DNA of 49,085 bases from an uncultured Pelagibacteraceae bacterium (GTDB lineage Bacteria; Pseudomonadota; Alphaproteobacteria; Pelagibacterales; Pelagibacteraceae), in contig CACOQC010000005.1 of assembly GCA_902629215.1 (NCBI GenBank), positions 1 to 49,085 of the forward strand. The letters run 5' to 3'. Shown piece by piece: positions 1 through 39,199 of this stretch. Position numbers and translations under genes: made by a program. Below the pieces are notes generated by a model. That model did not search any database, was not told where the DNA came from, and saw nothing but the letters and a program-made list of their open reading frames with translations. How positions within the stretch are numbered: the first letter of the stretch is position 1; the number at the start of each line of letters is the position of its first letter.

Positions 1-658
1 TTGTTTGAGTAGCGGCGGGAGTTTCAATCTTTGGAGTTTCTGAAACTACTTGATCATTATTTTGAATAATATTTTCTTCAACTTTAACTTCATTATTATT
101 TTCAGTTTCTTTAACTTGATTTTTTAATTTTTCACTCTCTTCATGAACATCATCAAACCATTTTTCTAAAATAGGTATTGCTTCTTCTAAATTTGTTGTA
201 CCTGAAGATGAAATTTTCTGTTTTCCATCAATATAAAGTCTTCCAACCCAATTTTTTGATTTTAGCTCACCCTTATATTTATCTTGTCTTACATATATAT
301 GTAGTCTTCCATCCTTTTTATGAATTACTTGATGGCTAGATCCACCATTTTCTTCTTTTTTTTCATCAGAAGCATCTAAAACTTCTGTTTGTTCTTGGTT
401 TTGATCATTATTATCGTTTACTGATGAAGTTGTTTCATTACTTTGTGTCTCTAGAGTTTTATTTTCCTCATTATTTTCATTTGATTGTATTAAATTTTCA
501 TTTTGATCATTACCCTGATTTGTTTCAGTAGGTTCATTATTATTAGGAGTATTTTCGCCTTCTGGTTGATTATTTTTATCAACTTCAGATTGATTCTCTT
601 CATTTGAGGTAGATGGCTCCTCAATAATATTTTTTTTATCGTCTTCTTGATCTGACAT
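1..658 (-). CDS. Acidic Asn/Gln-rich protein with integrase-arm-like DNA-binding segment (3' end outside window)
   Basis: Open frame from ATG at 658 to the window edge, 219 codons seen, no stop. The first ~115 residues are low-complexity and acidic (Asn, Gln, Glu, Asp, Thr), probably disordered. A compact segment follows at about residues 118-175. It contains GRLHIYV, then WVGRLYIDGKQK, then SSGTTNLEEA and a helix ending KWFDDV. This beta-beta-beta-helix pattern (aromatic-x-x-R, G-K-x-K, S-x-G-T, E-E-A) resembles the AP2-like arm-binding domain at the N-terminus of tyrosine integrases; the resemblance is by eye only. No catalytic recombinase domain is visible, though the C-terminus is missing. 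The acidic low-complexity composition resumes after the segment. The repeat array at 676-1013 begins 18 bases upstream of the start codon, so autoregulation or array binding is possible (inference). Confidence 0.7.
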   Translation of the reverse strand, partial: MSDQEDDKKNIIEEPSTSNEENQSEVDKNNQPEGENTPNNNEPTETNQGNDQNENLIQSNENNEENKTLETQSNETTSSVNDNNDQNQEQTEVLDASDEKKEENGGSSHQVIHKKDGRLHIYVRQDKYKGELKSKNWVGRLYIDGKQKISSSGTTNLEEAIPILEKWFDDVHEESEKLKNQVKETENNNEVKVEENIIQNNDQVVSETPKIETPAATQT

Positions 659-675
659 AATTTTTTTTAATTCAT

Positions 676-1013
676 TTTTTCTAACACAATATCGAATCTC
701 TAACACAAAGTTAGGTTACAGTCTAACACAAAATTGTAAGTTGCATGCTCATATTGGGTCTTTTTTCAAAAAAACAAGTAAAATCAACACTTTTTCACTT
801 AAAAAAAATTTCAATCAAATTTTTAAATTTTCTAGTTATTCATAATTACTCTAACACAAATGAAAAAATTTTATTGTGTTAGAGTAAAATTAATTTGTGT
901 TAGAGTTTTTATTCAAAATGAAAAAATAAAAAAGCTAATAAAATCAACAATAATTGAATTTTTGATAAAAATTAGTGATTTTGTGTTAGAGTATAATTTT
1001 TTTGTGTTAGAGA
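676..1013. repeat. Eight-copy 13-bp repeat array, four copies in each orientation
   Basis: Consensus ACTCTAACACAAA. The 9-bp core CTAACACAA occurs at 681-689, 700-708, 723-731 and 851-859. Its reverse complement TTGTGTTAG occurs at 874-882, 895-903, 981-989 and 1002-1010. All cores are exact; flanks vary slightly. Neighbouring cores are 19, 23, 23, 21 and 21 bp apart, with two longer gaps of 128 and 86 bp. Most copies therefore lie about two helical turns apart on one DNA face. Orientation flips once, between 859 and 874. The array fills the intergenic region upstream of the left-edge gene and looks like a protein-binding array: operator, partition-like site or iteron-like site. The binding protein is unknown. 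Confidence 0.85.
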
Positions 1014-38851: not shown

Positions 38852-39067
38852 GATTGTTATTGAATCTCTAGTAATTCCTTTTATATTAATAAAGTTGGTT
38901 TTCCAACTATGACGATAAACGAATTTCGTAATAACCATTGCGGACGTGGGGGCAGTACCCACCACCTCCACCATTTACAACTTATGGGGGTGAACTAGAT
39001 TCGACGGGTGACTAAAGGCTATTCTTTCGTTCGGAATTGTTCCTCCGTAACGGGCTAATTTATAATT

Positions 39068-39097
39068 GCTAACGAAAGTTACGCACTTGCTGCTTAA
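39068..39097 (+). other. tmRNA proteolysis tag reading frame (ANESYALAA)
   Basis: The resume codon GCT at 39068 opens nine sense codons reading ANESYALAA, then TAA at 39095-39097. The C-terminal ALAA is the standard ClpXP/ClpAP recognition end. The tag is short and closer to the gammaproteobacterial ANDENYALAA than to the longer AVAA-ending tags of many alphaproteobacteria. Confidence 0.9.
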
Positions 39098-39127
39098 TTA
39101 ACTTTGTTAATTAGGTAAACGGGGTTT

Positions 39128-39152
39128 GGGGCACCTGGCAACAGAACGCCCC
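39128..39152 (+). repeat. Direct repeat copy 1 (ssrA 3' end, attL-like)
   Basis: A 25-bp segment, part of the functional tmRNA, forming its final GGGGC/GCCCC stem. It matches 39787-39811 at every base. Confidence 0.95.
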
Positions 39153-39199
39153 TACTTATTCTAATATTTTCTTTATTTTATTTAATTTAATTTATATTT

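Follow-up and report, generated by a model that had tools for sequence, protein, structure and literature searches.

Among the closest described systems is the intS integrase gene of prophage KplE1, whose product is reported to repress its own gene, and a layout in which arm-type sites overlap the promoter has been reported for many tRNA-linked integrases (PMC2951348). As in that account of intS, the SAR11 pilM gene described here combines an integrase-type DNA-binding domain with arm-type sites near its own promoter (PMC2951348), but in SAR11 the domain is carried by a pilus assembly protein without the recombinase part, and its array has eight sites in an inverted layout without a tRNA attachment site. 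The arm domains of P4-like integrases (PDB 3jtz, 3rmp and 3ju0) consist of beta strands followed by one helix, as does the model of the SAR11 domain, although the latter has no PDB match by sequence and its structural Z-scores are in the chance range. With regard to the pilus, the long form of the SAR11 protein resembles PilM and PilN of type IV pilus systems in its PilM_2 and PilN matches and in the secretin and PilB-type ATPase genes that follow, but unlike ordinary PilM/PilN it unites both in a single chain that also bears a domain of DNA-binding type. In Sulfolobus, membrane-bound transcription factors are reported to control type IV pili surface structures (PMC6396743); the SAR11 candidate would share with these the membrane-bound state and the action on pilus-type genes, but they are transcription factors by the title of that report, whereas the SAR11 candidate is a pilus assembly protein (PMC6396743). 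Within SAR11, an adhesin gene has been described as adjoining type IV pilus genes, together with pilus-like filaments in cells (PMC12636525). Full-text literature searches that covered pili of SAR11, autoregulation of PilM, domestication of arm domains and SAR11 PilM-PilN fusions gave no description of such a locus, and while integrase arm domains, operator arrays and PilM are each of a known kind, their combination appears to be new.

We consider it quite probable that a type IV pilus operon has its operator in the array upstream of pilM, which would be made up of arm-type sites and bound by the N-terminal domain of the first gene's product, a PilM-PilN fusion. It is the most likely reading based on the co-occurrence of domain and array, the integrase homology of the domain, and the words found in one genome with both systems (G154), each of which is presented below.

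The array and the gene at the left edge of the window

The window, i.e. the whole stretch of 49,085 nucleotides that was analysed, belongs to a genome of 1.06 Mb in 47 contigs (84% complete). The eight exact CTAACACAA cores of the original prediction were all recovered, on the plus strand at 681, 700, 723 and 851 and on the minus strand at 874, 895, 981 and 1002, and the sole flip in orientation is located between 859 and 874, as had been stated. The 49-kb window has no further exact CTAACACAA beyond these eight, and genome-wide there are 14 copies, 8 of which are inside the array; at the rate of the other 6 copies, the probability of at least 8 in 330 bp is ~4e-27, which bears out the claim that the array is too ordered for chance. 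The 11-mer CTCTAACACAA has six copies in the window genome, every one in the array. The longer 13-mer given originally, ACTCTAACACAAA, is exact at only three of the eight sites and has one mismatch at four more. The random scatter over the genome that had been named as evidence against the prediction was not observed, the 11-mer being confined to the array.

Neighbouring sites were said to be mostly 19-23 bp apart, which is true for five of the seven start-to-start distances (19, 23, 128, 23, 21, 86 and 21 bp), the other two being long gaps of 128 and 86 bp. The sites thus form a proximal cluster of three plus-strand CTAACACAA (681..731, with sites at 681-689, 700-708 and 723-731), a middle cluster with the single inversion (851..903, with 851-859 on the plus strand and 874-882 and 895-903 on the minus strand), and a distal cluster on the minus strand (981..1010, with sites at 981-989 and 1002-1010). 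Counted from the pilM start codon, the proximal sites are about 31, 50 and 73 bp ahead. The exclusion of CRISPR also stands, as sites in both orientations with spacings of 19-128 bp contrast with direct repeats with regular spacers. A DNA uptake sequence was considered and rejected, since the six copies of CTCTAACACAA are confined to the array and not scattered in very many copies, and Rfam gave no match at the array.

The array is directly upstream of the left-edge gene, which starts at 658 on the minus strand and of which the window has the 5' part (2..658, 219 aa), truncated where the contig begins. Low-complexity sequence makes up most of these 219 residues, apart from one conserved stretch of 72 residues between two low-complexity stretches (119..334, minus strand), which contains a putative integrase-type (arm-binding-like) domain. 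The long-form orthologues have ~750-840 residues and are PilM fused to PilN: two orthologues match PilM_2 (PF11104) with 63.0 and 62.8 bits against a cut-off of 27, and PilN (PF05137) is above the cut-off in one and just below it in the other. In relatives, the next genes are by their position pilO-, pilP-, pilQ-, pilB- and pilC-like. In the window genome, contig C29 (L104) begins with the PilM body; two genes that have no Pfam match occupy the pilO and pilP places after it, and then come a secretin and a T2SSE (PilB-type) ATPase gene. From relatives we infer that C29 adjoins the contig of the window, C5.

Conservation of layout and helical phase

Relatives of the domain were collected from named SAR11 genomes and the best 80 of 160 were used, with at least 450 bp of upstream sequence present in 57 loci and the other 23 cut by contig ends (5 with 1-2 bp upstream and no site, 18 with 2-6 sites). 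All 57 loci contain at least three sites, and hence the array is kept in sister genomes with the same gene, which was the second issue raised by the original prediction. Eight sites are present in 29 loci, seven in 21, six in 5, and five and three in one locus each, and the plus-then-minus order with one inversion is found in 56/57 loci, with L154 as the exception. For the alignment of upstream regions the window was added and L168 was excluded, and removal of near-copies reduced these 57 regions to 48. The invariance of the core in these 48 upstreams is by construction of the search, but the T before the core is conserved in 99% and the C preceding it in 82%. Most adjacent sites of the same orientation are separated by 20-23 bp, and the spacing at the inversion is 23 or 24 bp in 45/48.

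As L153 and L154 have differing layouts, they were excluded from the phase and slot counts, which leaves 46 upstreams. Here a period of 10.7 bp was the best for 503 same-orientation distances, with a vector strength of 0.85, in agreement with the proposed placement on one face of the DNA. The cluster-to-cluster distances group about one helical turn apart (159-161 vs 169-174 bp, e.g. 160 vs 171), and evolution alters the gaps mainly by whole helical turns, as would be expected for proteins that have to meet on one face of the DNA. The proximal position has at least one site in each of the 46 aligned relatives, and the nearest site is most often at -30/-31.

Sites for IHF consist of an A-tract, a spacer and WATCAANNNNTTR. 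Both long gaps of the window contain an IHF-like element on the plus strand (A-tract, 8 bp, AATCAA) at 768..787 in the 128-bp gap and at 928..947 in the 86-bp gap, with a presumed role in bending and with the TTR part unmatched. The pattern of A-tract, 8 bp and WATCAA was present in 47 of the 48 upstreams, with 73 copies vs 6.4 expected from shuffles, for a pattern picked post hoc in related loci, and there are two HU/IHF-family genes in the window genome. Just upstream of the proximal cluster there is also a conserved block (742..760, minus strand, reading GACCCAATATGAGCATGCA on the gene strand), which may be a promoter element. A scan for the sigma-70 consensus promoter found none at the array, this block included, and in a sigma-32-like reading of the block, what would be the -35 part is a portion of the IHF-like element and is inverted in some loci.

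Co-occurrence of the array with the N-terminal domain

We scanned 61 genomes for CTCTAACACAA, and every cluster adjoined an orthologue of the left-edge gene (in 9 genomes), with single strays elsewhere, which is the distribution that the original prediction had associated with a dedicated operator. The domain is found in the same number of these genomes (9/61), all nine with at least three exact 11-mers adjoining, while the other genomes contain 0-2 copies of the 11-mer; G016 and G028 also have strays elsewhere. This was expanded to 397 genomes of the order, a set which overlaps with the 57 named loci and is not independent of these, where closely spaced direct pairs of sites were found in 66 genomes, the domain in 71 and the PilM body in 119. 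All 66 genomes with direct pairs carry both PilM and the extra N-terminal domain, and direct pairs are absent from all 50 genomes with PilM but without a domain match (including G148, cut by a contig end, and G424, a fragment) and from all 278 genomes without PilM (Fisher P 7e-70 for pairs vs domain, with kinship ignored). Five of the 71 genomes with the domain lack pairs: G235 has four sites without a close direct pair, in G372 and G282 the pairs are missing at contig ends, in G271 the domain is on an integrase only, and in G257 there is a weak domain match with stops, outside its short PilM.

Direct pairs are thus missing from 331 of the 397 genomes, and since the array is missing in most genomes of the order, it would not have a general role in segregation. 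Of the roles proposed originally, that of an operator is favoured, with clusters and pairs tracking the left-edge gene, that in replication is left unsupported, and a partition-like role by tethering of DNA keeps a small probability (see below). Iterons recur at about two helical turns, and the similar recurrence of the sites would suit a replication origin or plasmid-style iterons, but most genomes of the order lack the array, and where present it goes with one pilus gene, so that we find this scarcely credible.

In a PilM tree of the 68 usable loci, with the array scored as present at two or more sites per locus and with L250, L192 and L104 dropped as contig ends hide their domain or array, the domain and array agree in 68/68 loci. 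Both traits change three times, each time jointly; the corresponding sign test gives p 0.25, significance being unreachable with only three independent changes. L265 is a long form nested among short ones, and has sites. No repeated word was found in the promoters of short-form PilM in 8 loci, these being 8 of 13, while the other 5, missed by the anchor, entered the tree. Alternatively, a regulator encoded elsewhere could bind the array, with the PilM N-terminal domain binding something else and travelling with the operon. Co-occurrence is partly due to shared ancestry, with three independent changes, and other regulators are surely present in the genome, both of which fit such a regulator, but the joint shift of domain and array in each of the three changes and the short-form promoters without any such array make it distinctly unlikely, and the words at the integrases (see below) argue against it as well. 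A local regulator gene upstream of pilM in L046 and L049 was also considered as the binder, and was rejected since it is absent from that place in the window, L048 and L052.

Two variants of the locus were noted. One genome (G378) has one long and one short PilM (L202, L239), and in other SAR11 genera (L189, L193-L199) a divergent PilM begins with the domain, and the same 9-bp word is arranged differently there.

The N-terminal domain and its relatives on integrases

Two tyrosine integrases of SAR11 (L187 and L188) were also found with the domain profile (E 7e-27 and 1e-25); their N-termini are 51% identical to the domain of the window, and they carry the PF00589 catalytic domain. By sequence comparison the domain is homologous to the N-terminus of these integrases, and it is this homology which carries the kinship, not the fold comparison. 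The model from a diverse alignment (pLDDT 90.8) has four strands and a helix. With VIA-align, the second model had 3jtz, the arm-type domain of the HPI integrase, as first match (Z 5.9, rmsd 2.2 over 57 residues), with the arm-domain matches (Z 4.9-5.9) tied with unrelated folds and others within one Z unit; for the first model CapZ was above the arm domains, and CapZ and AcrIF proteins were above or beside them. Foldseek against the PDB gave no match below E 0.2 for either model, with no integrase among the best 50 matches listed. The modelled fold is consistent with arm-type-binding domains, a weak likeness with Z in the chance range.

Searches with the N-terminal domain gave no Pfam match, no PDB match of note by sequence, and only weak matches in NCBIfam and PHROGs (best E 0.0019, phrog_17986, unknown function). 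The phage and plasmid collections had no match, and no viral contigs were found with either the PilM domain or the full integrase as query. A wider alignment did retrieve five viral contigs (IMG/VR, L234-L238) with the same domain on proteins of 112-116 residues, where it is followed by a C-terminal hydrophobic stretch and no site array adjoins.

The stretches flanking the domain diverge widely among long forms, and the domain itself is under strong purifying selection (pN 0.042, pS 0.644; 7 diverse long forms, 60 codons). This selection bears on whether the array could be the remnant attachment site of an integrative element, fused into the operon and without present function. An att region with its integrase gene would be expected to leave behind an integrase-type domain and arm-type words, but next to the selection on the domain, the words are near-invariant with their helical phase kept across lineages, the window has no tRNA (a search for the tRNA-type core gave one tmRNA, 38 kb away), and the long form lacks the integrase catalytic part, with no match to PF00589 in two long PilM proteins using Pfam. 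Such a remnant is hence very improbable.

The full integrases found with the domain are two proteins of 418 and 423 residues, in G154 and G271; as they are 69% identical and both at tRNA-Leu(CAA), with a 5' fragment of the tRNA on the opposite side, they count nearly as one case. They are flanked by CTCTTACACAA words, which differ by one base from the pilM word (10/11 identical). The integrative element is ~4.9 kb long and was seen in two SAR11 genomes (L271:4484-9424; L272), with a tyrosine integrase and a serine resolvase gene. The single genome known to hold both the pilM long form and an integrase is G154, where CTCTWACACAA has ten copies genome-wide, six CTCTAACACAA and four CTCTTACACAA: the six A-forms are all at the pilM array, while the element of the integrase accounts for all four T-forms, in a span of 4.9 kb, and around this element a 24-bp direct repeat consisting of two T-form words has its copies 4.9 kb apart. 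In G271, the element has two of the three CTCTTACACAA, the third being a stray, and in G372, without a full integrase match, both copies are strays. Single T-forms therefore arise by chance at about one or two per genome, and the four T-forms of G154 within 5 kb, plus six words in the array, do not look like chance. For a regulator encoded elsewhere it would be unexpected that the words beside the sole other full-length bearer of the domain are 10/11 identical and otherwise absent from G154.

Possible mode of action of the array

Going beyond the original prediction, which named no binder, the likely binder is the left-edge gene's own product, via its integrase-type arm-binding domain; we strongly infer from homology and word distribution that this domain physically binds the words of the array. 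Autoregulation of pilM by its own product is likely by analogy, and many SAR11 bacteria probably have a pilus machine that governs how much of itself is made. Several copies of PilM-PilN would hold the 11-bp CTCTAACACAA words on one face of the DNA, and IHF or HU would probably bend both long gaps and thereby let the three clusters meet as in an integrase-att complex. Negative autoregulation would be the commonest outcome to expect, because the proximal sites are 30-75 bp before the start codon, where the promoter, start site or leader must be, and such repression has been shown for integrases with arm sites overlapping the promoter; together with the DNA folding, it is suggested by analogy with KplE1 intS.

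The PilN part has one hydrophobic, membrane-spanning-like stretch (by eye), and the N-terminal domain is thus presumably cytoplasmic and membrane-tethered. This would also be compatible with an array which chiefly tethers DNA, with membrane PilM-PilN holding the operon at the pilus base for local membrane-protein insertion, positioning or segregation, and regulation being secondary. Eight clustered sites suit anchoring, and in the five viral contigs the domain is likewise part of a small protein that has a hydrophobic stretch at its C-terminus, but the array is located in the promoter region, where the start codon most often follows 30-31 bp after the nearest site, and most genomes of the order lack pairs altogether; we therefore regard tethering as the chief function as doubtful. 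A wider form of the operator reading is offered tentatively: an integrase DNA-grip and its docking words may have been recruited such that the promoter is bound by the assembled pilus platforms it serves, in an intasome-like complex at the membrane with IHF-bent DNA, coupling assembly, transcription and locus position in one switch. Beside the live integrase of G154, the one-base change in the word would then separate the two systems.

SAR11 is among the most abundant bacterial groups of the ocean and is known for its few regulators. If the operator reading is true, it would provide a compact feedback switch for type IV pili and an example of a host that regulates with parts taken from a mobile element, and the A and T variants of the word would be a natural pair of near-orthogonal DNA codes. 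The question of when SAR11 makes pili also becomes directly testable.

Other features of the pilus gene neighbourhood

Further pilus genes in the window are a PilY1 match, a PilT-type ATPase, a prepilin peptidase and a protein with an N-methylation motif, and there is a tmRNA gene at 38879-39188. A gene for a GAF-SpoIIE phosphatase (1543-2892) adjoins the pilus genes. In relatives, pilC has STAS-like and HATPase-like genes (by eye) next to it (L048:1102-1838, L052:17686-18398), and the pilus cluster perhaps includes a partner-switch module.
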